A DNA stretch of 53,342 nt from contig JAJDBT010000015.1 of the NCBI GenBank assembly GCA_029261215.1, positions 1 through 53,342 on the forward strand, read 5' to 3'. This document shows, piece after piece, positions 28,027 to 51,621 of this stretch. The stretch comes from Nitrospirota bacterium (lineage in GTDB: Bacteria > Nitrospirota > Nitrospiria > SBBL01 > JAADHI01). The first letter of the stretch is position 1, and each line of letters opens with the position of its first letter. Below the pieces are notes generated by a model. That model saw only the letters and a program-made list of their open reading frames with translations. It ran no database searches and was not told the DNA's origin. A program made the translations under genes and the position numbers.

Positions 28027-28226
28027 CCTTGTTCCTTAAATTGAAGGTCTGAAATATTGAAAGTCTCCTGACGATTAAAAAGCAGGGTTTCTTCCAGCAT
28101 TGTGGTCAGGCTTTTTTGGAGGGCTTCACGTGAAGCTTCCAGGCAGTTGATTCCCGGAACCTCTTCGATCCATCCAATCCATGCGTCTGCATCTTTGATG
28201 ATCGCCGCTGTATATTGTTCACTCAT
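28023..28226 (-). CDS. HicB-like small protein inside the nuo operon
   Basis: The 67 residues match the HicB/UPF0150 fold: YTAAIIKDADAWIGWIEEVPGINCLEASREALQKSLTTMLEETL. HicB proteins usually are antitoxins that mask the HicA ribonuclease, but solitary members occur widely. No HicA-like gene is adjacent; neighbours are two NuoM genes, 13 bp away on one side and overlapping by 4 bp on the other. It must be translated with the complex. It may be a passenger, a regulator or an accessory factor. Confidence 0.75.
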   Translation of the reverse strand: MSEQYTAAIIKDADAWIGWIEEVPGINCLEASREALQKSLTTMLEETLLFNRQETFNISDLQFKEQG

Positions 28227-28239
28227 GATGCGTCCTAAA

Positions 28240-29826
28240 TTAAGGTGACTGATTTATTTTTGATTGAATCAGTAATGTGTCGTTTTTCGGACTTTCAGCC
28301 ATTTTCTGCGTTGCGGCAACCCGGTCTGTAATGAAGGTGACCGAGCTATCCATCATTCTCAAAAAAGGAAAGGGATAGATGCCCATCCAGAGTATGACCA
28401 CGACCAGCGCCGTGCAAATGCCGATTTCTATCCGGTCGAGATCCAGCAATTTTTTGTTTTCCGGATTGTTGAGTTCCCCCATCATTGTTCGCTGATACAA
28501 CCAAAGCAAGTAGGCACCAGCCAGAAGCACTCCAATGAAGGCGGGGGCCGCGATGTATAAATTACTTTTCATTGCGCCGATCAAAATGAGCAACTCTCCG
28601 ACAAAACCGTTTGTGCCTGGAAAAGCGAGTGATGAAAGGCTGATGACAAGGTAAAAACCGGCCAGTATCGGCACCTGTTTGGCCAGACCGCCATATTCCT
28701 TGATATCGCGTGTGTGACGTCGGTTGTAGAGAAAGCCAACGATAAAAAAGAGGCCGGAGGTCGAGATGCCGTGGTTGATCATTTGAATGATACCGCCCTG
28801 AATCCCTTCGGAATTGAGCGCAAAAATACCCAAAATCACAAAACCCAGATGGCTGATGGAAGAATAGGCAATTAATTTTTTGATGTCGTTTTGAGCGAGC
28901 GCGAGCAGTGCGCCGTAAATAATGCCGATGACCCCTAAAATGGACATGAGGGGGACAAAATAGGTCGAGGCTTCAGGCAAGAGTGGCAGTGAAAAGCGCA
29001 CAAATCCATAGGTGCCCATTTTCAAAAGGACGCCGGCCAGTAAAACGCTTCCGGTCGTTGGGGCTTCGACATGGGCATCGGGCAGCCAGGTATGAAAAGG
29101 AAACATCGGAACCTTGAAGGCAAAACCAAAAAAGAGCAGTGTAAAGACCCATATTTGTTTCTCTGATGTAAGCGGCACTTTAAATAGATCTAACAAGTCA
29201 AAAGAGTAGATGCCAGTCGCACTCTGATGATTTAAATAGAGAATGACAAAGCCGACGAGCATCATCACACTGCCCAGCAGGGTGTAGAGCACAAATTTAA
29301 GGGAGGCATAGTTTCTTCGCGCGCCGCCCCATGTTTTGATCAGGAAATACATGGGCAGCAGCATAATCTCCCAAAGCAGGAAAAACAGGAAGAGATCCAG
29401 TGCGCAAAACACGCCGATGACCGTGGTTTCCAGTACAAGCAGGCAAATGACATATTCTTTAAAATAGTGGTCGATGCCTTTCCAGGAAAAAAGCAGGGTG
29501 AGCACAGAAAGAAAGGTGGTCAGTACGACGAGCAGGACACTCACGCCATCGACCCCGACGTGATAGGTGATGCCCAAAGGCGCAATCCAGTCGAGACGCT
29601 CGACAAACTGCATATCTGGTGTGCCCTCACGGAAAAAAATAAGAAGCAGGGTCGAAAGTAAAAAAGAGGTGAGGGTGGCGAGCAAGCCGAATTTTTTGAT
29701 TTGTTTTTCATCATTTACAAAAACAAGCAAGACTGCGACAAGCAAGGGAATGAAGATCGTGAAGGACAAAACGGAAAATCCAAGCTGATCTTTCGCAAAT
29801 ATTTCACCAAGGGTACTGAGCATCAA
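28240..29826 (-). CDS. nuoM: Complex I subunit M
   Basis: The 528-residue subunit is a canonical NuoM: Glu153 in FFLLWEIMLLPMYFLIKTWGG, Lys238 in GFAFKVPMFPFHTWLPDAHVEAPT, a lysine in LLAGVLLKMGTYGF, and QNDIKKLIAYSSISHLGFV. NuoM is a proton-translocating subunit of the distal membrane arm. It starts 11 bp after the NuoL/Mrp-like gene and ends 13 bp before the HicB-like gene. All key residues are present, unlike the second NuoM copy. Confidence 0.95.
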   Translation of the reverse strand: MMLSTLGEIFAKDQLGFSVLSFTIFIPLLVAVLLVFVNDEKQIKKFGLLATLTSFLLSTLLLIFFREGTPDMQFVERLDWIAPLGITYHVGVDGVSVLLVVLTTFLSVLTLLFSWKGIDHYFKEYVICLLVLETTVIGVFCALDLFLFFLLWEIMLLPMYFLIKTWGGARRNYASLKFVLYTLLGSVMMLVGFVILYLNHQSATGIYSFDLLDLFKVPLTSEKQIWVFTLLFFGFAFKVPMFPFHTWLPDAHVEAPTTGSVLLAGVLLKMGTYGFVRFSLPLLPEASTYFVPLMSILGVIGIIYGALLALAQNDIKKLIAYSSISHLGFVILGIFALNSEGIQGGIIQMINHGISTSGLFFIVGFLYNRRHTRDIKEYGGLAKQVPILAGFYLVISLSSLAFPGTNGFVGELLILIGAMKSNLYIAAPAFIGVLLAGAYLLWLYQRTMMGELNNPENKKLLDLDRIEIGICTALVVVILWMGIYPFPFLRMMDSSVTFITDRVAATQKMAESPKNDTLLIQSKINQSP

Positions 29827-29837
29827 TACATCACTTT

Positions 29838-31706
29838 CTATTTAACCGCGACCATAAATTGTATGAGTTGATCTCCAAGAAGGACATAGAGGTTCACCAG
29901 AATAAAAATACCAATGATAATCATCATTGCATAGTTGTGAACAGAGCCTGTCTGGAGGCGTTTAAGAATATGGGCGGCGATATGATTGAGATAGCCGATG
30001 ACATTAATGAATGCATATACGACATACTTTTCAAAGGCATTTGAAAACCAGCTGCCACCAAAAACCCCACGGCCAATTTCGTTGACGATGCGGTCAATGA
30101 CGCCTGTATCAAATTTTTGGCAAAGGACGATAAACCATTTTGTCGGAGCGATAATGGCTTTTTTGTAGACCACGATAATAAATTCTTCCCAGATGGAAAT
30201 CGGCCCATTCGCAAATTTCATAAAGAATGTTCCCGCTTTCCGATAAAACCAGTCTGTATCGAGGCTGATGGTCTCATGAGGGCGGAGCTTTTCGACAAAC
30301 ATGAGGAATACGACTAGGGCGGTCAGAAGGATCTGAAACTGTATCACGAAATGACTCATTGTGAAGGCATGGTATTCCACGTCCGGGAAGGGCAAATAAT
30401 CGGTCAGATAATGGGGTTGTACTCCGAGCATAAAACAGAATATGGCCGCCAATGACATGCCAATGATCATATTCGGAGGTGGGTCAGTGACTTTAAGTCT
30501 TTTATCCCGGCCGACAAAAACATTAAAAGGCAGTTTGAGTGTTGTGGAGAGGAAGGTTCCTGATGCCGCCAGCGTTAAAAGCAGTGTCGTAATGGGGCGA
30601 TGGGCTTCCGCTGCGCTGGAAATAATCATGCCTTTGCTTATAAAACCGTTAAAGAAAGGTACGCCAGAGATTGAGAAGCCGCCGATCATGTAGAGCGCTG
30701 CTGTAATTGGCATCACCTTGCCGAGTCCGCCGAGCTCCGTCGCTTTGCGTTTTCCGGTCATGTAAATCACTGCACCCATGCCCATCATCAACAAACCTTT
30801 AAAGAGAATATTATTAATGGCGTGGGCCACGGCCCCATTTAAGGCCAGTTCTGATCCGATCCCAACCGCAGTGACCATGTATCCAACCTGGCTGATGATG
30901 TGGTAAGAAAGGAGCCGCCGAATATCGTTTTCCAGAATGGTCATCCCCAAGCCAAAAAGAGTCATGAAGAGGCCGACATAAATCAAGACCTCTGCACCCG
31001 GAAAGCCGCGCACAAGTGTATAAACGGCGACTTTTGTCGTAAAGGTGGCAAGCCAAATCGTCCCCGTCACGCTTCCTTCAGGATAGGCATCCGGTAGCCA
31101 GGCGTGAAGGGGGGGGCCGCCTGCATTGACTAAAAATCCAAAAAGCATGAGTCCGCCGGCCCACCCACTTGGGGAAATTGCACCAAAGCTGGCGTCACCC
31201 GTATTTACAACATGAACGATAATCCCACCCAGGAGCATCACTCCCCCAAAGGTATGGATCAGTAAATAGCGAAAACCGGCTCCAGCTGAGCGGGAATATC
31301 CTCCAAACCATATGATAAAGACCGAGGAAAAGGACATGATTTCCCAAAACAAAAAGAGGCTAAAGAGGTCACCGGCAAAAACAGCGCCCATTGCGCCGCC
31401 AGCGTACACAAAGGCTGCGATGTGTTCTCGAACTGTTTTTAAATGAAAACCATAAACCATACCGATGAATCCGATAATGCTGAAAATAAAAGCAAAGACG
31501 AGGCTTAAGTTATCTACACGGCCAAAAATCAGTTCTTGTCCCATAACATTCAGGACTCCGTGTGTCCCTTTTGAAGCATAATAAAGAGGGAGGATGGAGA
31601 GTAAGGGGACTCCCAATTGAACCAACTTTCTTTTGGTCTCATTTAAAAAAGGGAGTATGGCCGCTCCGATGAAGAAAAAGAGTGCTGGATGAACCCAATG
31701 AATCAT
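29838..31706 (-). CDS. NuoL/Mrp-like antiporter subunit with long C-terminus
   Basis: The 622 residues contain the antiporter core with Glu122 (LFLFWEIMSFS). In the helix-7 position the sequence is FLVNAGGPPLHAWLPDAYPEG, with Asn194 where most homologues have Lys. From about residue 455 a C-terminal extension follows with amphipathic helical stretches, ending LQTGSVHNYAMMIIIGIFI, like the lateral helix and last helix of NuoL. It probably occupies the distal NuoL position. The Asn variant also occurs, as far as I recall, in a family of MrpD-like subunits of anaerobes. It overlaps the MrpD-like gene by 4 bp. Confidence 0.85.
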   Translation of the reverse strand: MIHWVHPALFFFIGAAILPFLNETKRKLVQLGVPLLSILPLYYASKGTHGVLNVMGQELIFGRVDNLSLVFAFIFSIIGFIGMVYGFHLKTVREHIAAFVYAGGAMGAVFAGDLFSLFLFWEIMSFSSVFIIWFGGYSRSAGAGFRYLLIHTFGGVMLLGGIIVHVVNTGDASFGAISPSGWAGGLMLFGFLVNAGGPPLHAWLPDAYPEGSVTGTIWLATFTTKVAVYTLVRGFPGAEVLIYVGLFMTLFGLGMTILENDIRRLLSYHIISQVGYMVTAVGIGSELALNGAVAHAINNILFKGLLMMGMGAVIYMTGKRKATELGGLGKVMPITAALYMIGGFSISGVPFFNGFISKGMIISSAAEAHRPITTLLLTLAASGTFLSTTLKLPFNVFVGRDKRLKVTDPPPNMIIGMSLAAIFCFMLGVQPHYLTDYLPFPDVEYHAFTMSHFVIQFQILLTALVVFLMFVEKLRPHETISLDTDWFYRKAGTFFMKFANGPISIWEEFIIVVYKKAIIAPTKWFIVLCQKFDTGVIDRIVNEIGRGVFGGSWFSNAFEKYVVYAFINVIGYLNHIAAHILKRLQTGSVHNYAMMIIIGIFILVNLYVLLGDQLIQFMVAVK

Positions 31707-33196
31707 TGAATCACCGCCTGGGTTAAGGCCATGAAATAACTTGGGAAGAGGCCGATTAAGAGGGACATGACCGCAGTAAAGACCAGTGGCACAACCACGA
31801 AGTAGGGGGCTTCTTTTATATCGTCATGATGAATCCCGTAATTCCCTTCCGCATCTGCGGCGAGTTCTGCGGGTTTATGGAAAAAAGCTTTGTAGACGAT
31901 GGGGACAAAATAAGCCACATTTAAAACGGTACTGGTCAGCAAAACAAAGAGAATTGGAAGTTGATTGGCCTCAATTGAGCCGATCGCCAAATACCATTTT
32001 GTGATGAATCCGGCAGCCGGAGGAACCCCAATCATACTAAGGGTTCCGATGGCAAAGGCGGTCATTGTCCAGGGCATTTTTCTGCCGATGCCATTGAGTT
32101 CGCTGATTTTGATTTTGTGCGTTGCAACATAAATAGATCCCGCGCAAAAAAACAGGGTGATTTTAGAAAAAGCGTGATTGGCGATGTGCATCACACTGCC
32201 GGTCATGCTGCTTGGGGTTAGTAAGGCTGCGCCTAGGATAATGTATGAAAGCTGGCTGATAGTGGAGTAAGCGAGTCGCGCTTTGAGATTGTCCCGCGTA
32301 AGGGCATAAATCGAGGCCATAATAATGGTAAATGAAACAAAAAAGGCTGTGGGAATGCCTAAATTTAAGGAAGCCATTAAGTCTACGCCAAAGACGTGGA
32401 AAATCACCCGAAGCACGGTAAACACACCCACTTTGACGACAGCAACGGCATGCAAGAGTGCACTCACGGGTGTAGGGGCGACCATGGCCGCGGGTAACCA
32501 GGCATGAAAAGGCATGATGCCTGCTTTTGCGATACCGGCAATAAAAAGAATATAAATGACCGTCAGCATCATGGGCGAGCCTTGACCGTTAAAAAGACCG
32601 CCTTTTGCAAAATCGAGTGTGCCCGCGACATTGTAGGTGAGGATCAGCGCCGCCAGAAAGAACGTTTTTGAAGTACCAAAGAGGTAGATCATGTATTTCT
32701 TGGCACCTTCAAACGCGGTCTGGTTTCCTTTATGGGAAACCAATGGGAAAGTGGCAAAACTTAAAATTTCGTAAAAAATAAACAGGGTCAGCAAGTTTGC
32801 AGAAAAGGCGATGGCCAGGGCTGAGGAAACACTGATGGCAAAACAGGAGTAATAACGGGTTTGATGGATTTCCTTGGCCGTCCTCATGTAGCCGATGGAA
32901 TAACATGAGGTAACAATCCAAAGAAAAGATGCGACCGTGGCAAAAAATAACCCGAGCGGATCGGCTTTAAATGCGATTTCCAAACCCGGAACAAAGGTAA
33001 ATAGCGTGTAATGGAAGGTCGCTCCTGCAAGTACGGCAGGGGCCATTGATATCACGATGAGGAATTTTATGATTCCCGCGCCGATGGAGATCGCTTCTCT
33101 TTGGTTGGGATGATGATCGAATTTTAAGATCAGCCCTGCAGCGACTAAAGAAACCAGGACAGCTAAAAAAGGCCGGATCGACTCGATGGACTCCAC
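31703..33196 (-). CDS. MrpD-like antiporter subunit of complex I
   Basis: The 497-residue protein resembles the MrpD/NuoN group: Glu143 in FIFYEILSFATFPLVSHKG, Lys224 in IAKAGIMPFHAWLPAAMVAPTPVSALLHAVAVVKVG, and RDNLKARLAYSTISQLSY. MrpD subunits belong to Na+/H+ antiporter complexes and share the ion path of NuoL/M/N. Here it sits between nuoK and the NuoL-like gene, where canonical operons have nuoL, so it likely extends the membrane arm. Whether it moves Na+ or H+ cannot be told. The 30-bp gap after nuoK is the largest before the distal genes. Confidence 0.88.
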   Translation of the reverse strand: MESIESIRPFLAVLVSLVAAGLILKFDHHPNQREAISIGAGIIKFLIVISMAPAVLAGATFHYTLFTFVPGLEIAFKADPLGLFFATVASFLWIVTSCYSIGYMRTAKEIHQTRYYSCFAISVSSALAIAFSANLLTLFIFYEILSFATFPLVSHKGNQTAFEGAKKYMIYLFGTSKTFFLAALILTYNVAGTLDFAKGGLFNGQGSPMMLTVIYILFIAGIAKAGIMPFHAWLPAAMVAPTPVSALLHAVAVVKVGVFTVLRVIFHVFGVDLMASLNLGIPTAFFVSFTIIMASIYALTRDNLKARLAYSTISQLSYIILGAALLTPSSMTGSVMHIANHAFSKITLFFCAGSIYVATHKIKISELNGIGRKMPWTMTAFAIGTLSMIGVPPAAGFITKWYLAIGSIEANQLPILFVLLTSTVLNVAYFVPIVYKAFFHKPAELAADAEGNYGIHHDDIKEAPYFVVVPLVFTAVMSLLIGLFPSYFMALTQAVIQ

Positions 33197-40639: not shown

Positions 40640-40811
40640 GATGACACCTCCAGTGTATGGCGATATTAATGATAATGGGGTGAATATATCGTTTTATACG
40701 AACGAGAACAATACCACGAAATAGGTATTTCAGCTCTCAAATATACCTGAAGGTGTTCTTGCTCATGCGATCTGATCTGTTCGTCAACAGGAAGCGTTTA
40801 GTGAGTCATTT

Positions 40812-41147
40812 TTATTTTGAGGGGTTTGCAAAGTATTCTGCACGGGTGACCGAAACGTCTGATACAAGCATAATGCCGGTATAACGAGGGAAAATAGGTC
40901 TTAAGCCAGAAAGAATGGCTTCCATTTTTTCTTCCGGCACGACGGTCATGACCATCTGCATGCTGTCCATTTCATTGAACATCGGATGTGCCGTGTGAAC
41001 TCCATGATGTCCTTTGCCTGAAAGGTTACTAATGATGGTGTAGCCACCGGCTTCAATGTTTTCGAGTAACTCGATAACAAATCCAATTTGTTCTCCGTGA
41101 ATAATGATTCGAACTTCCTTCATAGGATACAGTGTTAATTTTGTCAT
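40812..41147 (-). CDS. PII-like regulatory protein of the DAB cluster
   Basis: The 111-residue protein has the ferredoxin-like core of PII-type proteins: VRIIIHGEQIGFVIELLENIEAGGYTIISNLSGKGHHG, with a T-loop-like stretch containing GVHTAHPMFNEMDSMQ. The tyrosine of the classical uridylylation loop is absent. PII-like genes accompany bicarbonate transporters (for example SbtB) and dabA in several autotrophs, where they sense nucleotides. It starts 54 bp after dabA with GGAAGG upstream, so it probably tunes inorganic-carbon uptake. Confidence 0.8.
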   Translation of the reverse strand: MTKLTLYPMKEVRIIIHGEQIGFVIELLENIEAGGYTIISNLSGKGHHGVHTAHPMFNEMDSMQMVMTVVPEEKMEAILSGLRPIFPRYTGIMLVSDVSVTRAEYFANPSK

Positions 41148-41201
41148 TGCCTTGTTTCCTTCCCTTTCTCTAATATGTGAGGATTGATTTTGTTTCTTGA
41201 A

Positions 41202-44200
41202 CTATTTCTGGGTTTCTTCACGCCATGTCCCATCTGGGAAGTAGCGATAAAAATGCTTGTTTTCCAGGGCGACCAAATGAACCCATTGATGATTAAAATG
41301 GTTTTGCAGAACACGGTGTCGCATCATGATTTTTTTGATGGTTTTTCTGGGGGCTTCGATAATTGTAAAAAGGCGTATCGGCTCATGGTAAGGCTGTGCT
41401 CCATTAAAAAGCGTTTGGGTGGGAAGCCCCATCCGGAGATCGCCTGTTGCGCCGGACATTACGCCGACCCGACCTGCCACGTTGTGATAGATTTTATTGC
41501 CGCTCCCATACACTTCGTTATCGGTGGTTGAAAAGTAGTATCCCATGTTAATCCATTGGGCCACAACCAGTGGGCCGGTCATGATAATTTCCAAAAATTG
41601 CCCTGTGGGGTCTTCTTCATGCCGATAAGAATGTAAAAAGACGCGGCCTTCAAGGTCAGTTCCCTCGATCAGCTTATTTCTGGCAATCAGAAATGCGCCG
41701 TTTCTGGAGAGACCCCATTCGGGGCGGGTGTGGCTCCATGTGGTACTTCGTCGCGTGACCTCGAGGGCGATTTTTTCTGGCTTTTTGAGTTCAGGCTTAA
41801 AGTCTGGGAAACGTTTATAGCGTTCCTGGATGTTGCTTGACGTGGTGTGCTGCAGATCGAGAATCAATTCGTCCAGGACATTTTTATGCGTGAGCGGGAG
41901 GTCTTCAATGTCGAAGATGATGACCTCATCTGTCGTTGTATTATGTTCGCCAGCGATAAAGTGCGTGTCATCGGGGATGTGGATTCCCTCTTTTTTAAGA
42001 TGTTCTCGAACATGGGTTTTATTGGCCAGGGCCGCAATCACTCGGGCATTTGGGCCGCCGGAGTTGCCCCCGCAGGCTCCGCAATCCAGTGAGGCCTCGT
42101 AAGGGTTGTTTTCTGAAGTGCTTCCGTGCCCACAAAAGAGAACGAGTTTAGCAAAGTTTTTTGTAAATCCCAACATTTTTAGCGCAGTTTTTACCGTGAA
42201 AATTTGCTCATTTAAGGTGAAGCCGGTTCGTGTAATGCGCTCCATACGTGCGGAGGCCCAGGCTTCTGTGATGAAGTGTTCTTCTCGCAGGGTGTGAACA
42301 AATGCGTTTAATTTTTCAGGTGTTGGAAACAGTCTTTTGAGTGTTTTTTGTTCTGATTCGTTCAGTAGTGTCTCTGGTTGTCCAGGCTCAAGTGCCAGCT
42401 TTCTCAGAGCTTCTATCGATTCGGGAGAGGCCATTTTTTTATGTGCATCTGGTCGAGCCCGGAGGACTTCTTTAATGATCATCCGTTGTTCAGATGCGAT
42501 GATTTTGTAGACCGAGTCACGTGTGAGCTTGTCAACGGTCAGTGTGGTCGAGATCGGGGGTGCAAGCTGTTCTCGCAACCATCTCGACAATTTTTGATAA
42601 CTTAAAGGGAAAAGTGTCTTGCCAATGAGCGGAATGCCAAAAAACCATCCGATGGATTCAACCATGACATAGGGGGTGATGACATTTTCTTTTAGGTCAT
42701 GAAGCAGGGTATGGGCGCCGTGGATGAAGGCCGCTCCCGCGTGGTAACGAGGGACTTTTTCTTCCTGAAAAGGCCGGGGAATTTCCTTAATGGCGTTTTT
42801 CTCTTTTGCGACAGCCGGAAAAAGGTCGGTCTCATGATGGTGACCAAAGGCGAGGTAACGGATGAAGACTGTAAAAAATCCTGCAAATCCAAAGGTCTTG
42901 TAACGCCCTGTTTTTTCCAGGTGACGGCGAAATGACTCGGAGCGGGCATCAATGCAGAAAATGGCCTGCGCATGAGGTCTTTCTTCCTCAAGGTGATCGA
43001 TGGAAGGTTCGCTTGTGTCAATATTTGGACCGAGCTTTTTGATCAGGTTTTCCTGAAAGCCGATTTCGAGGGCTTCAAGCCAGATCGGGCCGTGGGCTGA
43101 TTCGGGCAGGGCATCAATCCAGTTGATGATTTGCTTCAGATCCTCTGCATCGCTTTGCAGAAGGGTTTCCGGCGAAATACGGCGGATCTTCGCAAGTGAA
43201 ACAAGCCGCCAGGCTTCAGATAAGGAAAGAAGGTGTACTTGCTGCGGGCCAAGGTTTTTTATATAACGCCCCAGAAGGTCGTCCCATGCTGTGTCTTCGG
43301 GTTTTAAAGTGCGATAACAAAGGTGATCGACGGCTTCTGCGTATGAGGCGGGGAGCTGATTTGTGATCCGTTCCTTCCGTAAGAATAATTCTGCTGGATG
43401 GTCTGTGATATAGGCCAGGAGGGCGTCTCGTGTGCCATGAACCCCGATGTGTTTCTGACACGCCTCTTCTACCCATTGGCGCTCGTACCACAGACGAATG
43501 GCCAAGTATTGAATGAGATCGATTGGGTAGGCCTCCTGCCAGGCGTAATCTTTATGGTCCGCCCGCCATTTAATTAAGGATGTCCAGCCTGGCAGGCTGG
43601 ACAGATGGAGGCCGAAATAATCTTCCCAGGCTTCTTCGGGAATACCGAGGGCTTCTAGATTTTGAAGGATCATATCTGTTGGCCGTTCAGGTGTTTTTTT
43701 GATGTTCTCGATACTTTTTCGAGCCGATCCAAAGGCCCATCCCTTTACGGCAAGTGTCTTCCATGATCGATAAAGGCCCTTTTCCCGAAAAGGCAGCGGC
43801 CAGGGGGCCTGTCCTTCATCCAGAAATGGCAGGCACCACTTGATCATTTCCTGATTTATTTTTTCTCTAATGTTGCTGCCAAAGGTTTGATCACACCAAG
43901 CGGAGAGCGTGATCGTCTGGCCGAGTCCGGAACGGATGTCATTGAGAAACTGATTTTTTTTGCCTTCGAAATCAGCGGAAGAGGCAAAAGGCCGCAATTG
44001 ATCAGCGAGTGTTTCAATGATCTGAGCATTGGAACTATTGTTGATGGCAGTCTCCAATATTTCTGGAGCAGGTGCAGAAATACCCTCAATCATGTGAGCA
44101 CGAAGGACATTAATATGAGTGATTTTTTGATTTTTTAGGGTGATTTCAGTTTGTGAGGCGAAGCTTTTTAACGCTGCATCCAGGTCTGATTCGCGAATTC

Positions 44201-44441
44201 TGCCGCTTTTAAGGTAGTTCTGGTAAACAAGGTTTGGAAGATAGCCCTCTCCACCGAGGTGACGTTTTCCCTGAAGGATGGCTTCATTGAAATCAAGATG
44301 TTCAAAGTCGTGGAGCGGGTTATTATAAATGAAGGTGTGCATCGGCCAGGTCATTGCGGCGCGCGTTCTTGCAAGCCTAACCAGACCCAGCAAGCTCATC
44401 CGATCCAGATCGTTATATTTTTTTTGCTCTAACGATTCCAT
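41202..44441 (-). CDS. dabA: DabA-type inorganic carbon uptake protein (UPF0753/DUF2309)
   Basis: The 1079-residue protein belongs to UPF0753/DUF2309. It keeps the zinc and catalytic residues of DabA: Cys496 and Asp498 in IFCIDARSES, His772 in LFCGHGSTSENN and Cys787 in DCGACGG, with the same 15-residue His-to-Cys spacing as in Halothiobacillus DabA. DabA is a vectorial beta-carbonic-anhydrase-like protein that works with an ion-motive partner to trap CO2 as bicarbonate. At 1079 residues it is longer than the about 830-residue founding member. It overlaps the previous membrane gene by 13 bp. Confidence 0.93.
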   Translation of the reverse strand: MESLEQKKYNDLDRMSLLGLVRLARTRAAMTWPMHTFIYNNPLHDFEHLDFNEAILQGKRHLGGEGYLPNLVYQNYLKSGRIRESDLDAALKSFASQTEITLKNQKITHINVLRAHMIEGISAPAPEILETAINNSSNAQIIETLADQLRPFASSADFEGKKNQFLNDIRSGLGQTITLSAWCDQTFGSNIREKINQEMIKWCLPFLDEGQAPWPLPFREKGLYRSWKTLAVKGWAFGSARKSIENIKKTPERPTDMILQNLEALGIPEEAWEDYFGLHLSSLPGWTSLIKWRADHKDYAWQEAYPIDLIQYLAIRLWYERQWVEEACQKHIGVHGTRDALLAYITDHPAELFLRKERITNQLPASYAEAVDHLCYRTLKPEDTAWDDLLGRYIKNLGPQQVHLLSLSEAWRLVSLAKIRRISPETLLQSDAEDLKQIINWIDALPESAHGPIWLEALEIGFQENLIKKLGPNIDTSEPSIDHLEEERPHAQAIFCIDARSESFRRHLEKTGRYKTFGFAGFFTVFIRYLAFGHHHETDLFPAVAKEKNAIKEIPRPFQEEKVPRYHAGAAFIHGAHTLLHDLKENVITPYVMVESIGWFFGIPLIGKTLFPLSYQKLSRWLREQLAPPISTTLTVDKLTRDSVYKIIASEQRMIIKEVLRARPDAHKKMASPESIEALRKLALEPGQPETLLNESEQKTLKRLFPTPEKLNAFVHTLREEHFITEAWASARMERITRTGFTLNEQIFTVKTALKMLGFTKNFAKLVLFCGHGSTSENNPYEASLDCGACGGNSGGPNARVIAALANKTHVREHLKKEGIHIPDDTHFIAGEHNTTTDEVIIFDIEDLPLTHKNVLDELILDLQHTTSSNIQERYKRFPDFKPELKKPEKIALEVTRRSTTWSHTRPEWGLSRNGAFLIARNKLIEGTDLEGRVFLHSYRHEEDPTGQFLEIIMTGPLVVAQWINMGYYFSTTDNEVYGSGNKIYHNVAGRVGVMSGATGDLRMGLPTQTLFNGAQPYHEPIRLFTIIEAPRKTIKKIMMRHRVLQNHFNHQWVHLVALENKHFYRYFPDGTWREETQK

Positions 44442-45733
44442 AAAGCAGCTCCCATTGTCTCTGAGGATAAATGGACACTATGTTCAATGCCTAACAGGGA
44501 ATAGGGGGCGATCCCCAAGATAAGCAAGATGATCAGGATGAGTGAAAGTGCTGCAACTTCCCGAAAGCCTAAGTCGCGATAAACCCAGCCCGGGTTGGGT
44601 TTTCCAAACAGCGTTTTCTGCATCAGTGTTGGAAATCGCCATGACGCAAAAAACCAGGACCCTAGAATAATGATGAAGCTCCAGGAAAAAGCCATTGAAG
44701 GCGAAAAGGCCAACGCGATAAAACCGGAAAAAACACCGAAGAAGGGGAGTCCCATCGCAGCCATGATCAGCAAGGAAAATAAGATTGAAAAGCGCGGCAT
44801 TACGGATACAAGCCCACCAAAACAATCCAAGTTCAAATCACCATAGCGGCCTTTGAGTTCGTGTGAGGCCAGAAAAAGCCCACATAGGGCCAAGGATATG
44901 GCGCTTGAAAAAATAATGCTTGCCGGTATGTTGATTTCTAAATGAGATAGAGACCACCATAAAATCGACCAGAAAACCAGGGCCGTCTGAGCCAAAACCT
45001 GGGGTATACGGGCCTGAACGAGGCTTCTGAGAGAAGCAATGATGACACCCAAAATAGCGCAAAGCAGGACGATTTGTCTGACCCCAGGGGGTAACAGGGG
45101 CAATACAGGAAGCAGTCCATAAAGACCTAATGCTGGAAGATAAAGCGCCAAAAATGCGGGCAAGACCCCGGATAATCCATTCAGAAGTGATATGTAGGCG
45201 CCATGAAGTGGAAACAGTGGAAGCAGTGTGGCATAAGCTAAAAATAAGACCAGGTGTTTGTTCGCACCTGTTAAAGAGAAAGAAAGAATGATTAATAAGA
45301 TGGCAGCGCCGTATAGTCCGCTGACCCACCGTGTTCTTCGATTTGAAAAATCTTCGGTCCTGAGCTGAATGGTGATCAATAAGGCAAAGACCCCGATCAG
45401 AAAGCCTGATCCGAGGTGATTGTCATTCAATAAAAACCCGAGTCCAAGTCCGGTGAGTACCAATACTTCAAAGAGGTCGTAGGCGGGTTTTATGTCCAGG
45501 TGTCGTCCCAGAATCACTAAAGCTGCTGATAGCGTCATGATAAAGGCCAGCGGAATACTCGTTGGTGCTTTTATAAAACCTGAAAGAATAAATACTAAAA
45601 TCAGTTCGAGGATGGCCAGGGCTTGAAGCCATGCCATGAGGATCTTCGGTTTCTTGCGGAAGAAGAAGCCCAAACATGCGCCGAGAATTGGAGTGATGAC
45701 CAAAAGTTGTGAAAAAGTGAATGACGCTTCCAT
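44429..45733 (-). CDS. Degenerate antiporter-like membrane subunit of the DAB cluster
   Basis: The 434-residue, 12-14 helix protein resembles the NuoN/MrpD fold, but the helix-7 motif reads LAYATLLPLFPLHGAY, with no lysine before PLH, and there is no clear helix-5 Glu. It is nearly adjacent to dabB on one side and overlaps dabA by 13 bp on the other, so it must belong to the complex. It may be a structural partner or an extra membrane subunit next to DabB. Two-gene dabAB systems lack it. Confidence 0.75.
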   Translation of the reverse strand: MEASFTFSQLLVITPILGACLGFFFRKKPKILMAWLQALAILELILVFILSGFIKAPTSIPLAFIMTLSAALVILGRHLDIKPAYDLFEVLVLTGLGLGFLLNDNHLGSGFLIGVFALLITIQLRTEDFSNRRTRWVSGLYGAAILLIILSFSLTGANKHLVLFLAYATLLPLFPLHGAYISLLNGLSGVLPAFLALYLPALGLYGLLPVLPLLPPGVRQIVLLCAILGVIIASLRSLVQARIPQVLAQTALVFWSILWWSLSHLEINIPASIIFSSAISLALCGLFLASHELKGRYGDLNLDCFGGLVSVMPRFSILFSLLIMAAMGLPFFGVFSGFIALAFSPSMAFSWSFIIILGSWFFASWRFPTLMQKTLFGKPNPGWVYRDLGFREVAALSLILIILLILGIAPYSLLGIEHSVHLSSETMGAALWNR

Positions 45734-47473
45734 CTAGGGCAACCAGAAAAGATATTTTTTATCGAGTTTTTGGGCCAATTGGATCACATTTCGGGTGAGT
45801 CTTTGGTAAAAAAAATCCAGATACAGGCGATTCATAAAAAGAACATAAAATTTTTCTTTGAGCCGATCAACCCATGATGGCATTAAAATATGCTGCCCCC
45901 GGGCATTGGCATAAAGAAAAACCCAGACAGAGGTCATCATGATTAAGGTGATGATCACAAAAAAATCGAAGAGCAGCGTGGGCAGGGCAGCGGTTTCGAA
46001 ATAGAATGCCGATTCCCCAGGCTTGGGATAAAGAAAAATGGTGAATAGCTCTCCAGCGAAGAGGTAGGTGAAGGTGATCAGGACAAGCGCTGAGATCATC
46101 GCACCGACCACCTTCCATGAGGCGGCGGCATTCATCCGATAAATGCTGATAATGGCTTGCGAAGAAGTGACCCATCCAAAAAACAGGAAAATGACTGCAC
46201 CATGCGCCTCATTTGACAACGGAATATGAAAAACATCGTGTGCTGCAAGCAGGGTGATCAAAGGGAGAATCAGTGTGATGATAAAACCGGTAAACCAGAT
46301 TAATCGTGAAAAATCCTTTGTGGCGATGGGTTCTGAGAGAATTTGTGCTGTTTTAGAGGGTTTGGGCGATTTGGGGTCGGCACGTGTTGAGTGTATTACG
46401 CTTCCTGCACTTAAAAATAAAGAGGCCTTAAAGAGACCGTGCGCGATAAAATGAAAAATAGCGAGGGCAAATGCGCCCAAGCCACATTCCATAATCATGT
46501 AGCCCATTTGCGCGATGGTAGAATAGCCCAGCATTTTTTTGACGTCGTTTTGTGTCAGCATCATGCTTGCGCCCAAAAATGTTGTAAAGGCACCAAGGAT
46601 AAAAATAAGATTGAGGCTCACCGAAGATAATCCGTAGAGGGGCGCAAGCCGATTTAAGAGGAAGCCGCCTGAATTGACGATGCCAGCGTGCATCAAGGCC
46701 GAAACCGGCGTGGGACCAAACATGGTGTCTGGAAGCCAAAGGTGCAAGGGAAACTGGGCCGACTTGCTCATTGCACCCACAAATATCAGGAGCGAAATGG
46801 CAGTGACCCCTTTTATTTTGAATAAATCACCCGGAAAGAGCGACAATGTAATATCAGTTGTCGCGGCTTTTTCAAAAAGGAGTGGAAAGTCGAGTGTCCC
46901 GTAGAGATGATAGGCCAAAAATACCCCTGCCAGAAAAAAAAGATCCCCTAATCTAAAAGTAATCAGCGTTTTAAACGCGGCCCGGTAGGTTTCGTGATGT
47001 GCGGTGTTGAAAGCCAAAAGAAGATAAAGAAGCCAGCCGATGAGCTGCCAAAAAATAAATAGGATAAAGAGGTTTGGACTTGTAACCAGGCACAAAAGCG
47101 CGAAGGTAATAAGTGAAAGCAATGAGAAGAAGCGTGCATATCCTGCCTCTTGCTGGAGATATGTTTTTGAGTAAATATGAACGATTAAACTCACACCTGT
47201 TACCAGGACCAGCATGACTGCAGACAGACGGTCGATATAGAGTCCAAACCCGAGAAAGGGGTTGAGTGTTGCCAATGATGGAAGCAGTGTGATTTTGATC
47301 GGAGGGTTTTGCGTCAGATCATAGACTATAATGGTAGAGAGGGTCAGCGAGACTGTTTGGGCAAATATTCCAATTATGGCGACTTTTTCTCCCCAGCGAC
47401 TGGAAAGAAGAGGAATAAGAAGAGCAGCCAGGAATGGAAATAACAGAATTAAAATGGGGTGCGGCATACTCAC
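45734..47473 (-). CDS. dabB: DabB-type NuoL-like membrane subunit
   Basis: The 579-residue membrane protein has the NuoL/MrpA-type antiporter core: Lys237 in FVGAMSKSAQFPLHLWLPDTMFGPTPVSALMHAG, NSGGFLLNRLAPLYG, and QNDVKKMLGYSTIAQMGY. In helix 5 the usual Glu is replaced by Gln143 (IFWQLIGWLLY). DabB couples cation flow to DabA. It is the first gene of the minus-strand cluster and diverges from the 2-oxoacid oxidoreductase operon. The start is GTG at 47473 or ATG at 47467, neither with a strong Shine-Dalgarno. Confidence 0.88.
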   Translation of the reverse strand: MSMPHPILILLFPFLAALLIPLLSSRWGEKVAIIGIFAQTVSLTLSTIIVYDLTQNPPIKITLLPSLATLNPFLGFGLYIDRLSAVMLVLVTGVSLIVHIYSKTYLQQEAGYARFFSLLSLITFALLCLVTSPNLFILFIFWQLIGWLLYLLLAFNTAHHETYRAAFKTLITFRLGDLFFLAGVFLAYHLYGTLDFPLLFEKAATTDITLSLFPGDLFKIKGVTAISLLIFVGAMSKSAQFPLHLWLPDTMFGPTPVSALMHAGIVNSGGFLLNRLAPLYGLSSVSLNLIFILGAFTTFLGASMMLTQNDVKKMLGYSTIAQMGYMIMECGLGAFALAIFHFIAHGLFKASLFLSAGSVIHSTRADPKSPKPSKTAQILSEPIATKDFSRLIWFTGFIITLILPLITLLAAHDVFHIPLSNEAHGAVIFLFFGWVTSSQAIISIYRMNAAASWKVVGAMISALVLITFTYLFAGELFTIFLYPKPGESAFYFETAALPTLLFDFFVIITLIMMTSVWVFLYANARGQHILMPSWVDRLKEKFYVLFMNRLYLDFFYQRLTRNVIQLAQKLDKKYLFWLP

Positions 47474-47912
47474 AGTGACGTGACTTTCAATGTTTTCCCA
47501 AAAAAACAGCGTGTCTCCTGTAAAAACAAGGACTCGAGTAATTATGATGAATGTTTATTAAAGAGTCTGTTTAAAAAATCATTTGCCAAAAATCATTAGA
47601 CAACAAGGGCAAAGCGCTCTTCAACAAAAAATTGAAAAATAATGACATCTGTTCCAGATGAAACTGAAATGCAGGAGGCCCGTTTCTGCAAGACTTGATC
47701 TGGAGATAAGAAAGGGAAGGTTTGAATGAAGATTTATGTCGATATCTATTTGGAAATCTTCAGCAAATCAATATTAAGATCTAGATTTTTTTTTGAATTG
47801 ACAAGACTTTAGCCCCTGCCTTATCATTGAAAAAATTAATCGCCTTTCCTCATTGGGAAGCTTACGATAAAATATCAGCGTACATTTAGTGATCAATAGC
47901 ATATAAGGAGTA
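47474..47912. promoter_or_regulatory. Divergent control region with a TTGACA/TATCAT promoter
   Basis: The 440-bp gap serves dabB to the left and the oxidoreductase operon to the right. On the plus strand TTGACA (47798-47803), 18 nt, and TATCAT (47822-47827) make a good sigma-70 promoter with a start near 47834 and an 80-nt leader. AAGGAG lies before the first gene. The minus-strand promoter of dabB is not obvious. No gene was seen, and the dyad module of the left region is absent. Confidence 0.55.
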
Positions 47913-47915
47913 ATG

Positions 47916-48671
47916 ATGACACAAGGAAATAAAGTCGCCTATCCTGTTGTTCCAGGCCCAGAGGGCATTCTTCCCCCAGCCGCGACGATGATGGGTGTTC
48001 CCCTTCCTGAAGAAGGCGAAGGGTTGGTTGAGGGTAGAATCGTTGGCGAACAAGAAGCACTCGAAACAGCTGCGATTGCCCTCTTGACCAGAAAGAATGC
48101 AACGCTTTTCCCTGGGCCATTAGTTCTCTGGGGTTGGAATGACCACACCAATGAAAAGGCAAAATATTTTTTTGATGTCGCAAACGAGCTTCCGGGAATT
48201 CGGATCATTCCGATGCCTGACTATCGTCCGATCTATCCAAAGATTGATCCAGAAGCAGTGATCAATCCTTGTCATCCTAACTTGACGATCTGGCATAATA
48301 AAATAGAGGCGTGTGTCTTTATTGGTGTTCATTGCCATTTTGCAAACATCACATTGAAAATGGTGCGCGCTGGAACAAATTGTTACACCATTGCCCTTTG
48401 CGCAGAGGCGGGACACGAAGATGCGATGTGTTCTGTTCCAAATTTTGACATCGAGAAGCTTGTGCGTTTTCGAGATGCGATCATCAAGGTAAAGAAGAAT
48501 GGGATTAAGCCTCTTTATGAAGGTAAAGGCATTATTCCAACAGGATGGGCTCAGATTTCCAGGTTATCGGGAAAACCCGTAGAAAAACCCAAAGATGACT
48601 TGCTTGAAGTGGGCGTAACGGGCGCGTTTTCTCATGAGCTTGAGACTGGTTTAGACGATACAGCAGAATAA
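47916..48671 (+). CDS. porE: 2-oxoacid:ferredoxin oxidoreductase, accessory (E-type) subunit
   Basis: The 251-residue soluble protein has no cofactor motif but is rich in conserved Cys/His, such as VFIGVHCHFANITLKMVRAG and CAEAGHEDAMCS. It matches the fifth subunit (PorE/ForE) found only in five-subunit oxidoreductases of autotrophs such as Hydrogenobacter and Nitrospira. Its job is not well known. The ATG at 47916 has AAGGAG 5 bases upstream; another ATG 3 bases earlier is also possible. It opens the operon. Confidence 0.85.
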   Translation: MTQGNKVAYPVVPGPEGILPPAATMMGVPLPEEGEGLVEGRIVGEQEALETAAIALLTRKNATLFPGPLVLWGWNDHTNEKAKYFFDVANELPGIRIIPMPDYRPIYPKIDPEAVINPCHPNLTIWHNKIEACVFIGVHCHFANITLKMVRAGTNCYTIALCAEAGHEDAMCSVPNFDIEKLVRFRDAIIKVKKNGIKPLYEGKGIIPTGWAQISRLSGKPVEKPKDDLLEVGVTGAFSHELETGLDDTAE

Positions 48672-48687
48672 CGAAGGAGATTATGTT

Positions 48688-49938
48688 ATGAGCGAAGGAA
48701 CAAAAGCAACAACCGAACCTCAAGTAAGTAAAAACGACACAAGTCCTGGTGCAGGTATACCTAAAGAAACGCCTAAAAAGGAAGAAGTCAAAAAAGGTGC
48801 GGCAGCACAGCGTGTTGTCGATCCCGACTATCTTATATTAGAAGCCCCAAGGGAAAGAGAATTTATTACGGGTAGTGAAGCCGCAAAAGAAGCCATTCGT
48901 CGTGCGAATGTGGATATTGCCATTGCGTATCCCATTACGCCTCAGAGCGAAACAATGCAACAGGTTGGGTATCTTTACGCTGAAGGCTACATCAAGGATT
49001 ATTATCGCGGAGAGGAAGAAATTGGGGTCATGTCGGCGGTTGCCGGTGCCTCTCGTGCGGGTGTGCGTGTTTTGACTGCAACGGCAGGCCCAGGTTTGAT
49101 GCGAGGGATGGAAGCCATTGTTTCGTGGCCAGGTGCCAGACTTCCTTCCGTTTTACTTGTCATGTGCCGCGTGGTGAATACGCCACTTGCCATTCAGCCA
49201 GATAACGTCGAGATTTCCTATCTCCTAAATGCCGGTGGAATTGTTCTACATGGTGAAGGGCAGCAGGATTTTTATGATTTTCCGCTCGTAGGTTTTATGG
49301 TCGGAGAAAAACCCGAAGTGACCTTGCCCGTTGCCGTTGCAGTGGATGGCTTTTTCGTGACACATGCGCGGGGTTGGGTGAGTATGCCCGCAGAAGATCT
49401 GAAATTGCCTCCTCGTGATTGTTATCATGAAGCCGTGCCGATGATGGATAATGAAAATCCTCCCATCCGAATTTCTCGTGACGCGCCAATTCAGAAGTCG
49501 AATTTTATTTCGTATCAAATGCATGCAGCATGGCAGCAAGAGGTCTGGGCTGCACAGGAACGCGCAAAAAAGTGGCTTGATCGATGGTTAGGTGGTTTAA
49601 TTGAAATTGTGAATCCAAATGCGAAGACGATGATCGTCGCTTCTGGTGCAGCTGTTTCACAAGGCCGGGAAGCGGTGCGCCAAGCAGAAGAGCAAGGGCT
49701 TGATGTTGGATTAATTAAAGTGAAGTCCCTTCGGCCTTTTCCGGGGAAGGAACTTGACGAAGCACTAGCACATGCGGATAGAATTGTTATTCCAGAGTTC
49801 AACTATATTGGTTGGTTGGCAAGAGAAGTAAAATCTGCCATTAAAAACAGTGACCGGGTTATTGCTGGTCCAAGGGTTTTTGGCGGAATGACGATGCCAA
49901 CAGAGATGATTTTGGAAACCATTACAGGTTCTAAATAA
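48688..49938 (+). CDS. porA: 2-oxoacid:ferredoxin oxidoreductase, alpha subunit
   Basis: The 416-residue subunit holds the pyrimidine-binding domain: FITGSEAAKEAIRRANVDIAIAYPITPQSETMQQVGYL, EEIGVMSAVAGASRAGVRVLTATAGPGL, and a C-terminal domain with MIVASGAAVSQGREAV. A 45-residue Lys/Glu/Pro-rich N-terminal extension is unusual. With the beta subunit it binds TPP and catalyses reductive carboxylation of acetyl-CoA or succinyl-CoA with ferredoxin in the reductive TCA cycle. Whether the substrate is pyruvate or 2-oxoglutarate is not resolvable. It lies 16 bp after the E gene, with AAGGAG upstream. Confidence 0.93.
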   Translation: MSEGTKATTEPQVSKNDTSPGAGIPKETPKKEEVKKGAAAQRVVDPDYLILEAPREREFITGSEAAKEAIRRANVDIAIAYPITPQSETMQQVGYLYAEGYIKDYYRGEEEIGVMSAVAGASRAGVRVLTATAGPGLMRGMEAIVSWPGARLPSVLLVMCRVVNTPLAIQPDNVEISYLLNAGGIVLHGEGQQDFYDFPLVGFMVGEKPEVTLPVAVAVDGFFVTHARGWVSMPAEDLKLPPRDCYHEAVPMMDNENPPIRISRDAPIQKSNFISYQMHAAWQQEVWAAQERAKKWLDRWLGGLIEIVNPNAKTMIVASGAAVSQGREAVRQAEEQGLDVGLIKVKSLRPFPGKELDEALAHADRIVIPEFNYIGWLAREVKSAIKNSDRVIAGPRVFGGMTMPTEMILETITGSK

Positions 49939-49954
49939 GGAGAAAGGGTCAAAT

Positions 49955-50830
49955 ATGTCATTAAAAACGATTCAAGCTGCACCTGGTTTTCAGGATTATT
50001 TGCCAAAAGAGTATCAAGATTTACTCGAAGATGGTCCATTTTTTCAACAGCGTAAGGTTTCGGAGCTGGGTTCCTTTAAGGAAGCCATTGAAGAACATCC
50101 TATGTGTGCCGGTTGTGCAATGACATTGTTCATTCGCCTTGTATATGTTGGACTCCCAAGCTTGGAACATACCGTAATCTGCGGAACTGCAGGTTGCGGG
50201 CGACTCGCCATATCTCAAGGGGCAGTGCCTTTTGTATATGGTAACTATGGTGATACGAATGCTGTCGCAACCGGACTCAAAAGAGGGCTTGATATTCGAT
50301 TCAAGGATCAACCTAAAGACGTTGTCGTTATGGCTGGAGACGGTGGGCTTGCAGATATCGGATTTCATGCAGTTATGCATAGCTGGTTCAGAAAAGAGAA
50401 GTTTACAACCATCATGCTGGATAATGAGGTCTACGGAAATACCGGTGGACAAGATAGTGGGATGACCCAAAAAGGGATGGTCATGAAAATGGCCCCAACA
50501 GGGAAGAAGTTTGAAAAAATGGATATGTTGGGTCTCGCAAAAACCGCAGGGGTGGCGTATACCGCAAGAATTTCGCCAACAAACCCAACCCGAGTAGCGA
50601 ATACGGTACGAAAGGCCGTTTTAATCGCCCGTGAAGTGGGTCCGACTTTTATTCAAGCCTATACCTCGTGCAACATTGAGTACGCAATCCCGACGCCAAA
50701 GGTCATGGACGATGCAAGGGAAGTCGAAAAAGATCGTTATGGATACCTTGAGTATTTCAGTGACGAAGCCAAAACCTATTGGGAAGAAAGCGAAAAAGAG
50801 AGAAAACGGCTTCGCAAAGCAGAAAAATAA
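49955..50830 (+). CDS. porB: 2-oxoacid:ferredoxin oxidoreductase, beta subunit (TPP)
   Basis: The 291 residues carry the TPP-binding motif GDGGLADIGFHAVMHSWFRKEKFTTIMLDNEVYGNTGGQ with the usual Mg-TPP GDG...N pattern, and an N-terminal CAGC plus a later CGTAGCG whose cysteines belong to a 4Fe-4S cluster. The C-terminal part holds YTSCNIEYAI. It pairs with the alpha subunit to form the active site. It starts 16 bp after porA with AAGGAG. The length is normal for this class. Confidence 0.93.
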   Translation: MSLKTIQAAPGFQDYLPKEYQDLLEDGPFFQQRKVSELGSFKEAIEEHPMCAGCAMTLFIRLVYVGLPSLEHTVICGTAGCGRLAISQGAVPFVYGNYGDTNAVATGLKRGLDIRFKDQPKDVVVMAGDGGLADIGFHAVMHSWFRKEKFTTIMLDNEVYGNTGGQDSGMTQKGMVMKMAPTGKKFEKMDMLGLAKTAGVAYTARISPTNPTRVANTVRKAVLIAREVGPTFIQAYTSCNIEYAIPTPKVMDDAREVEKDRYGYLEYFSDEAKTYWEESEKERKRLRKAEK

Positions 50831-50868
50831 TCATTCAAGAAAATTGCTTGTAAGGAGGGGTTTTAGTT

Positions 50869-51621
50869 ATGGCGAAAGTAAAAGCGAAGCGGTTTAGTGT
50901 CCGTATGGCCGGTATTGGTGGTCAGGGTGTTGTTACTGCTTCTCATGTCTTAAGTAACGGCGTGATCATCGATAAAGGGGAAAGCACAATGGTTCCTTTT
51001 TTCGGATCTGAAAAGCGTATGGCTCCAGTCGAGAGTTATGTCCGAATCTCCGAGGATGCGATCTACGAGATTGGGGAGATTATTTACCCGAATGTGATTG
51101 TTATTTTCCACACACAGGTCATTACGCATGGAAAGTCGTATACAATGCCCTTTTATTGGGGATTAAAGCCTAACGGGGTTGTCATTATCAACAGTGAAAC
51201 AGAGTTGCAGCTTAATATTGATGAAGAAAGAGAACTTCGAGAAATGAATGCCAAGGTTTTTCATATCCCCGCATCAAGACTCGCAGTTGAAGTGGCGGAT
51301 ACGGAATTGGCCACAAATATGGGCATGGTGGGCGCAATCGCCGGTATTTTAGGTATGCCACAACCTAAAGCCATAGAGCAGTCGATTAAAGAACGTTTTA
51401 TCGGAAAGGGAATTGTAACCTCCGGTGGAACAGCTGCACTTGATAATGTCATTGAAAGGAAATTTGCCAAAAAGGCTGAGCTTGTCTCAAAAAATAATGA
51501 CGTGGCTCAGGCCGCACGTCAATATGTTATTGAGAGGGGCTGGGATAAGTGGTGGGAAGAAGGTTACCTTGGCGGCGTAAGTACGAAAAAGTCTCAAACC
51601 GTGGGTGCCAGTACAAGCTAA
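50869..51621 (+). CDS. porG: 2-oxoacid:ferredoxin oxidoreductase, gamma subunit
   Basis: The 250-residue protein has the gamma-subunit start VRMAGIGGQGVVTASHVLSN, then STMVPFFGSEKRMAPVESYVRIS and a central helix bundle, ending in a basic C-terminal arm. The gamma subunit binds CoA with the alpha subunit. AAGGAGG lies upstream of the ATG. It follows porB by 38 bp. The sequence is complete. Confidence 0.92.
   Translation: MAKVKAKRFSVRMAGIGGQGVVTASHVLSNGVIIDKGESTMVPFFGSEKRMAPVESYVRISEDAIYEIGEIIYPNVIVIFHTQVITHGKSYTMPFYWGLKPNGVVIINSETELQLNIDEERELREMNAKVFHIPASRLAVEVADTELATNMGMVGAIAGILGMPQPKAIEQSIKERFIGKGIVTSGGTAALDNVIERKFAKKAELVSKNNDVAQAARQYVIERGWDKWWEEGYLGGVSTKKSQTVGASTS

Follow-up and report, generated by a model that had tools for sequence, protein, structure and literature searches.

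A NuoM-like third subunit that lacks the pump residues in a DAB1-type inorganic carbon pump operon from Nitrospirota

In a Nitrospirota bacterium (assembly GCA_029261215.1), a stretch of 53,342 nucleotides of contig JAJDBT010000015.1, hereafter the window, carries four minus-strand genes in a row, from 47473 down to 40812: dabB, a third membrane gene, dabA, and a gene for a PII-like regulator. The protein encoded by the third gene, which we call DabC for convenience (the name is taken from no source), is most similar by sequence to NuoM and ND4. It appears to be a NuoM-like protein without the residues that pump ions. From the combined analysis, we consider it likely that the operon encodes a DAB1-type vectorial carbonic anhydrase that is driven by the proton motive force, with DabC as a non-conducting NuoM-like scaffold and a CPII-like protein as the regulator, and that it serves the reductive tricarboxylic acid (TCA) cycle.

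The first gene, dabB (45734-47473, with a GTG start), encodes a putative NuoL-like proton-conducting membrane subunit of 579 amino acids (a.a.). The third membrane gene (44429-45733, 434 a.a.), with a NuoM-like antiporter fold, starts on the base adjoining the dabB stop codon and overlaps dabA by 13 bp. An earlier, sequence-only reading of this DNA had placed an antiporter-like gene here with the same overlap, and those coordinates are correct. Next come dabA (41202-44441), which encodes a long, DAB1-type catalytic subunit of 1079 a.a., and the PII-like gene (40812-41147, 111 a.a.), whose closest solved relative is 5d4n. The Pfam matches are PF10070 for DabA (831 bits), PF00361 (187 bits) and PF00662 for DabB, and PF00543 for the PII-like protein (71 bits). 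DabC has a weaker match to PF00361 (33 bits) that is restricted to residues 160-358. The source genome (3.37 Mb, 97% complete) matches PF10070 at this DabA only. The order of the genes recurs in Nitrospirota, Pseudomonadota, and Aquificota, and without the PII gene in Campylobacterota, so the arrangement is far beyond chance.

An AlphaFold2 model of DabC, built from a 32-row alignment, has a pLDDT (predicted local distance difference test) of 90.3. It reads as 14 transmembrane helices (TM1 to TM14), of which TM7 and TM12 are broken. Foldseek and VIA placed DabC on NuoM/ND4 chains over almost its entire length. The match to 8e73_4M had Z = 43.1 over 414 residues (root-mean-square deviation 2.6 Å), and 6tjv_D, which is chain D of NDH-1MS, was among the best matches (Z = 41.5).

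The sequence-only reading had described the third protein as lacking its key lysine. In fact, all of the expected charged residues are gone: the glutamate of TM5, the lysines of TM7 and TM8, and the lysine or glutamate of TM12. Compared to NuoM from the window, the TM7 lysine is replaced by L170, the TM8 lysine by A201, and the TM12 glutamate by F338 (residue numbers are shifted by 9 to match the full protein), and the TM5 glutamate is missing. These residues are also absent from the aligned DabC rows. In a count across 101 rows, the number of lysines or glutamates at the pump positions was the number contributed by the window's two NuoM proteins that passed the filter; the remaining rows had none, and one of them had a histidine at TM8. 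Other positions (P, G, W, R, and D) are invariant across the DabC proteins of Aquificota, Pseudomonadota, and Nitrospirota.

Many DabC proteins are shorter. In Pseudomonadota, the open reading frames (ORFs) are about 234-298 a.a. long. For instance, in Nitrobacter hamburgensis, DabC has 253 a.a., is annotated as hypothetical, and is encoded between a NuoL-like gene and the gene for a 1037-a.a. DUF2309 protein. Downstream of the DUF2309 gene are genes for PII, a LysR-type protein, Rubisco, and the carboxysome. A profile of 18 short DabC proteins from Pseudomonadota aligned, along its whole length, to residues 162-409 of the extended family (hhalign 99%, E = 9.5e-18). Because of this alignment, the small protein of the Halothiobacillus neapolitanus type is, by its profile, the C-terminal half (TM7-14) of a NuoM-like subunit. 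The match of the Campylobacterota-type DabC to the extended family was weaker (92.5%, E = 4.8e-7). We consider the half-length proteins to be kin to NuoM because they match full-length DabC; the direct match of their profile to a single NuoM from the window is weak (hhalign probability 11%, E = 0.0027). According to the model, the window's DabC is a full 14-helix NuoM fold, with the TM1-6 half added to the small form. TM7-14 is therefore retained in every form of DabC, and in complex I this half of the antiporter-like subunits faces the next subunit.

To describe the distribution of DabC, we used 143 deduplicated DabA proteins from hand-picked genome regions, from three plasmid records, and from the best 80 of 579 confirmed loci, which came from one scan led by long DabA. 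This sample is not random and its proportions are not natural frequencies; also, the first-look search scored no more than two DabA candidates in each genome, and some copies were missed. We found that 128 of the 143 DabA proteins had at least 930 a.a., and 110 of these had DabB alongside, after we left out 11 long DabA that had no DabB next to them and 7 others at the ends of records. Fifteen DabA were shorter than 930 a.a., but four of these (L067, L068, L102, and L155) are long DabA that have been truncated or frameshifted. In L067 and L068, which are from the window's order, dabA is interrupted, and in L067 the DabB-DabC gene is as well, which suggests decay or sequencing error.

DabC was present in 100 of the 110 long-DabA operons with DabB and in none of the 11 short, DAB2-type operons, all of which have DabB. 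Among the 110 long operons, DabC is extended in 43, short in 41, represented by a short ORF at its position in 2, fused to DabB in 14, and missing from 10. Two of the 100 DabC (L145 and L149) were assigned by position only, and three of the fusions (L153, L158, and L171) were assigned by length and by kinship to L151. As to whether ordinary dabAB operons always carry the third gene, which the sequence-only reading had raised, it is standard in DAB1-type operons but absent from DAB2-type ones. A DabC profile built from Nitrospirota only had 113 ORF matches in the loci that we used: 110 of these adjoin a dabA, and the other three are the window's own NuoM/NuoN proteins. Searching plasmids with the third protein gave one match only, to a NuoM.

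A PII gene follows dabA in 98 of the 110 long-DabA operons with DabB. Eight were scored as lacking it (seven from Campylobacterota or Hydrogenothermaceae, and L150, in which PII is in frame with DabA), and four records end too early to score. The single frame in L150 (6932-10267) encodes DabA followed by PII at residues 1009-1109; this could be a natural fusion or a frame error in the metagenome-assembled genome (MAG). Among the 11 short loci, PII was found in one and was absent from nine; one record ends too early. The exception is a Nocardia plasmid (L119, 3217-7786), which has a short DabA and then a PII-like gene, with no third gene. Therefore, PII also occurs with short DabA.

In a tree of 84 DabA rows, which was built by a quick method under LG+G4 and carries a warning of long branches, all of the operons with DabC lie in one part, with 68 rows, and the window is among these long DabA. 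Nine short DabA lie on the other side of the tree, along with seven other long DabA for which DabB is missing or the record is incomplete. The DabB-DabC fusions are at two separate places in the tree, in Aquificota and in a Nitrospirota group to which relatives from the window's order belong. The 10 operons that have DabB but no DabC are all at Nitrospira-type loci. Seven of them are in the tree, as a clade (starred) inside the DabC-bearing Nitrospirota part, so the absence of DabC from this clade is most simply explained as a loss.

The catalytic residues of DabA are conserved. The zinc ligands C496, H772, and C787 and the dyad D498/R500 align with C351, H524, C539, and D353/R355 of DabA2 (9rd0), and R906, W909, and L911 correspond to R653, W656, and L658 in the 9rd0 alignment. 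The roles of the DabA2 residues are from PMC13144422 (this and other papers are cited by PubMed Central identifier). C496, D498, R500, H772, and C787 are invariant in all 81 DabA rows that we grouped (9 short, 55 long with DabC, 7 long without DabC, and 10 without DabB); the other 3 of the 84 rows in the tree fit no group. The glutamate of the membrane finger would be E595, which we equate with Glu444 of DabA2 from the alignment rather than from a structure. E595 is invariant in the 9 short rows and the 55 long rows.

The sequence-only reading had also put DabA at about 250 residues longer than the founding member, and this agrees with 1079 a.a. here versus about 827 in DabA2 (PMC13144422). 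Most of the nine short DabA lack segments 102-110, 127-175, 333-382, 401-443, 611-619, and 660-728 (229 residues), and the extra length is mainly in four insertions (127-175, 333-382, 401-443, and 660-728). In the Campylobacterota and Hydrogenothermaceae without PII, some of these segments are shorter: 49 instead of about 65 residues for 660-728, and 31 instead of 43 for 401-443. We considered whether long DabA depends on DabC or on PII, and rejected both ideas. The DabC-less Nitrospira clade retains PII and every extra DabA segment, which argues against dependence on DabC, and the PII-less Campylobacterota retain the segments in shortened form, which argues against dependence on PII. Nor is long DabA the mark of a distinct class, as it is the norm for DAB1.

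In DabB, the equivalents of the residues in the DabB2 pathway are present: R174, D177, K237, H262, K312, H341, H345, and K349. This mapping from DabB2 is our own, via alignment offsets, and covers the mappable residues only. Alanine mutants of DabB2 failed at the equivalents of H262, K312, H341, H345, and K349 (PMC13144422). D177, K237, and R174 are the ion-pair residues, and all are kept.

The alignment also bears out the earlier observation that DabB has Gln143 where the antiporter subunits of complex I have the TM5 glutamate. Since none of 131 aligned DabB rows has glutamate at this position, Gln143 is, on the alignment, a trait of the family, and we rejected it as the mark of a distinct class. 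The 42 rows with extended DabC all have Gln here. The 14 fused DabB-DabC rows have Gln, His, or Ser, and the 43 with short DabC have His, Gln, Phe, Tyr, or Asn. The 10 DabC-less rows have His, another 15 DabB rows have Gln or His, and the 7 of the DAB2 type have Val, Ile, Leu, or Ser. In DAB2, it is Ile151 (PMC13144422).

The DabC-less clade gives a hint as to where DabC might bind. We compared the DabB columns that are 90% conserved in 52 Nitrospirota rows with DabC to 10 rows without DabC. In the DabC-less rows, 28 of 194 such columns are altered: 14 of 41 in residues 121-240 (the TM4-TM7 region) versus 14 of 153 elsewhere (Fisher p = 0.0002, which is not a strict probability, as the changes reflect a single evolutionary event; the 121-240 range was picked after the counts were seen). 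By region, 0 of 27 columns are altered in 241-280, 0 of 17 in 441-480, and 6 of 22 in 281-320. Among the altered residues are Q143, which becomes His, and R174, which becomes Gly or Ser; the equivalent pair in NuoL, Glu144/Arg175, has been placed near the subunit interface (PMC13144422). DabA shows no cluster of changes with the loss of DabC (15 of 299 columns, scattered). The changes in DabB are consistent with DabC packing against the face of DabB that corresponds to the NuoM site in complex I.

The sequence of the PII-like protein aligns with 5d4n/5d4l along 106 of its 111 residues (E = 4e-25), and by this sequence membership it is a CPII-like regulator. We take 5d4n to be the carboxysome-associated PII-like protein CPII. 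Going by the title of a 2016 study by Wheatley, CPII reportedly responds to bicarbonate.

Putting these results together, we propose that DabA is a catalyst resembling β-type carbonic anhydrases, with its zinc ligands and finger glutamate intact, and that DabB would provide a NuoL-like proton path that receives the DabA finger; the path's residues are conserved, and its course is taken from DAB2. DabC, a NuoM-like paralogue stripped of pump residues, is probably non-conducting. It may pack on DabB at the TM5-TM6 face, the site at which NuoM meets NuoL, and may hold DabB in a proton-passing state. The CPII-like protein could report the energy or bicarbonate state and throttle the pump. We extend this proposal, though only tentatively, to DAB1 in general, which may be the L-M membrane arm of complex I in minimal form, converted into a CO2 pump. 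In this extension, DabC, stripped of its ion path, docks on DabB as NuoM does, and in place of an ion-pair switch driven by redox chemistry it provides a setting that is either fixed or under the control of PII; the Nitrospirota would keep the complete M fold and other groups the half that makes the contact.

Several points weigh against a non-conducting scaffold in a proton-driven pump. R296, R314, and D387 (numbered on the full protein) are conserved charged residues of DabC, and their retention leaves room for DabC to have a role that involves charge. MpsAB, a relative of DabAB, is argued to use sodium (PMC13144422), so proton coupling is proposed here only by analogy. The interface statistic comes from one clade and one loss event, so the altered columns are not independent. 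A model of the Aquificota DabB-DabC fusion from L151 (pLDDT 77, predicted template-modeling score 0.71) is too weak to define an interface, and its VIA match covers the DabB half only. And long DabA and PII persist in the DabC-less Nitrospira clade, so DabC is not essential for every long-DabA pump.

Other roles for DabC seem less probable than a scaffold. It might be an assembly or regulatory platform on which the extra DabA segments and PII dock, rather than a tuner of DabB's ion pair. Long DabA, DabC, and PII do largely co-occur (the 98 of 110 operons with PII), and the extra DabA segments are shorter in the PII-less Campylobacterota and Hydrogenothermaceae. But the DabC-less Nitrospira clade retains both PII and the extra segments, which shows that neither needs DabC there, and Campylobacterota carry DabC without PII, so we consider a platform unlikely. 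We are more doubtful still that DabC is a second active ion path, with the DabB-DabC pair moving two ions for each CO2 that is hydrated. One proposal in print is that the count of membrane genes determines how many ions are moved (PMC5700660), and the modeled DabC has an entire antiporter fold with broken TM7 and TM12. Yet the aligned DabC proteins lack the pump residues of TM5, TM7, TM8, and TM12, and those of Pseudomonadota and Campylobacterota retain just half of the fold. Finally, the loss of every pump residue and the absence of DabC from one Nitrospira clade might suggest a functionless remnant of complex I or Mrp ancestry. This seems very improbable: DabC has been kept from Aquificota to Pseudomonadota to Nitrospirota, with its invariant positions, and in two clades it forms one protein with DabB.

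The dab operon is divergent from a 2-oxoacid:ferredoxin oxidoreductase operon (47913-51621, plus strand), whose four genes encode a CO_dh-like protein and the alpha, beta, and gamma subunits. The two operons share the divergent intergenic region (47474-47912), which is presumably the promoter region. It contains one promoter-like match, TTGACA-18-TATCAT, on the plus strand at 47798-47827; over 40640-47912, promoter matches were not above the mean of shuffled sequences. The oxidoreductase operon is divergent in four of the five family members that we examined, with the same pair in L063, L064, and L065; it was not found in the 15.5 kb that make up L061. A complex I operon lies after the dab operon. 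This complex I operon (24933-33196) has five consecutive PF00361 genes which, by best NCBIfam match, are one NuoN-like, two NuoM-like, and two MrpD-like. In the genome, we found no match to the large subunit of Rubisco or to β- or α-type carbonic anhydrases (the γ, ζ, and ι types were not searched). From its family and phylum, the oxidoreductase probably serves the reductive TCA cycle. Given these neighbors and the lack of a Rubisco match, the pumped bicarbonate would serve this cycle as well, and not Rubisco.

DabA is also found in other settings. In L093 (5757-14961), L112 (5377-15000), and L113 (4590-8387), a DabA without DabB heads an Mrp antiporter gene cluster; in L093 this includes MnhE, F, and G, MbhD/E-like, MnhB, C, and D, and a 730-a.a. 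NuoL/MrpA-like gene. These DabA proteins may act on the whole Mrp complex. PMC5700660 mentions neighborhoods of a similar kind that contain NuoM and SulP. L086 and L106 each have a second DabA without DabB (about 1005 a.a.), tail to tail with an operon in the order DabB-DabC-DabA-PII, with SulP-family permease genes nearby; L086 also has an Mrp gene cluster. Nine Nitrospira-type loci (L104, L105, L109, L110, L114, L115, L163, L188, and L196) have a tandem pair of DabB genes before DabC-DabA-PII. Another Nitrospira-type locus, L103 (8744-13401), has DabB-DabA-PII and then a sensor kinase, a sigma-54 regulator, a PAPS-reductase/CysD-like gene, and a second DabA.

The sequence-only reading had proposed a distinct, regulated class of pump for dissolved inorganic carbon. 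A regulated pump with a lysine-less, antiporter-like third subunit is supported, but the class is not new: DAB1 and its gene order are in print (PMC4633670, PMC13144422, PMC5700660). H. neapolitanus has a NuoL homolog, a putative transmembrane hypothetical protein, a 1046-a.a. DUF2309 protein, and PII, in this order (PMC4633670); a 2026 paper describes DAB1 as a three-subunit complex with the small membrane protein hneap_0908 (PMC13144422); and ybcC/nuoL operons form clades, one with PII and one with NuoM and SulP (PMC5700660). What is new here is the NuoM identity of the third DAB1 subunit and its full-length variant. In the open-license literature in PubMed Central, which does not include the founding 2019 DAB paper, our searches did not find hneap_0908-type proteins described as NuoM-like, nor any account of the 434-a.a. 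form or of the DabB-DabC fusions. In the excerpts we examined, the third subunit is only a small hypothetical membrane protein.

Its identity as a disarmed NuoM gives a testable hypothesis, namely that an antiporter subunit of complex I can be held in a conducting state without redox chemistry. The natural forms of DabC (split, fused, half, full, and missing) bear on this hypothesis. The results also link DAB1 pumps to autotrophs that probably use the reductive TCA cycle and lack Rubisco, such as the nitrite oxidizers, and possibly manganese oxidizers, among the Nitrospirota.

Among known systems, cyanobacterial NDH-1MS (NdhF3-NdhD3-CupA) also combines an L-type and an M-type antiporter-like subunit with a CO2-hydrating protein. 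NDH-1MS is a complex I that is driven by redox chemistry and whose M subunit has pump residues, whereas the window's operon has no redox subunits, and the likeness of chain D to DabC is common to all NuoM proteins. CPII (5d4n) resembles the window's PII-like protein across 106 of 111 residues, and the window's gene adjoins genes for carbon acquisition. DAB2 of H. neapolitanus (9rd0) and MpsAB share with the window the catalytic zinc site, the finger glutamate, and the proton-path residues of DabB; unlike the window, they have two genes, a short DabA (about 827 a.a.), and no third subunit. The closest system is DAB1 of H. neapolitanus (hneap_0907/0908/0909 and PII), which has the same gene order as the window; a MAG titled H. 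neapolitanus (L128) has proteins of 570, 250, and 1052 a.a. and then PII, again in the same order. The neighbors of DAB1 in H. neapolitanus are carboxysome genes (PMC4633670), instead of the oxidoreductase and complex I operons of the window. By gene order, the grouping of its DabA, and its PII gene, the window's operon is a DAB1-type pump, and it differs in its third protein, which is not small. Because that protein has 434 a.a. and an added TM1-6 half, instead of the TM7-14 half of about 250 a.a. in H. neapolitanus, the operon is a variant of DAB1 and not a plain copy.

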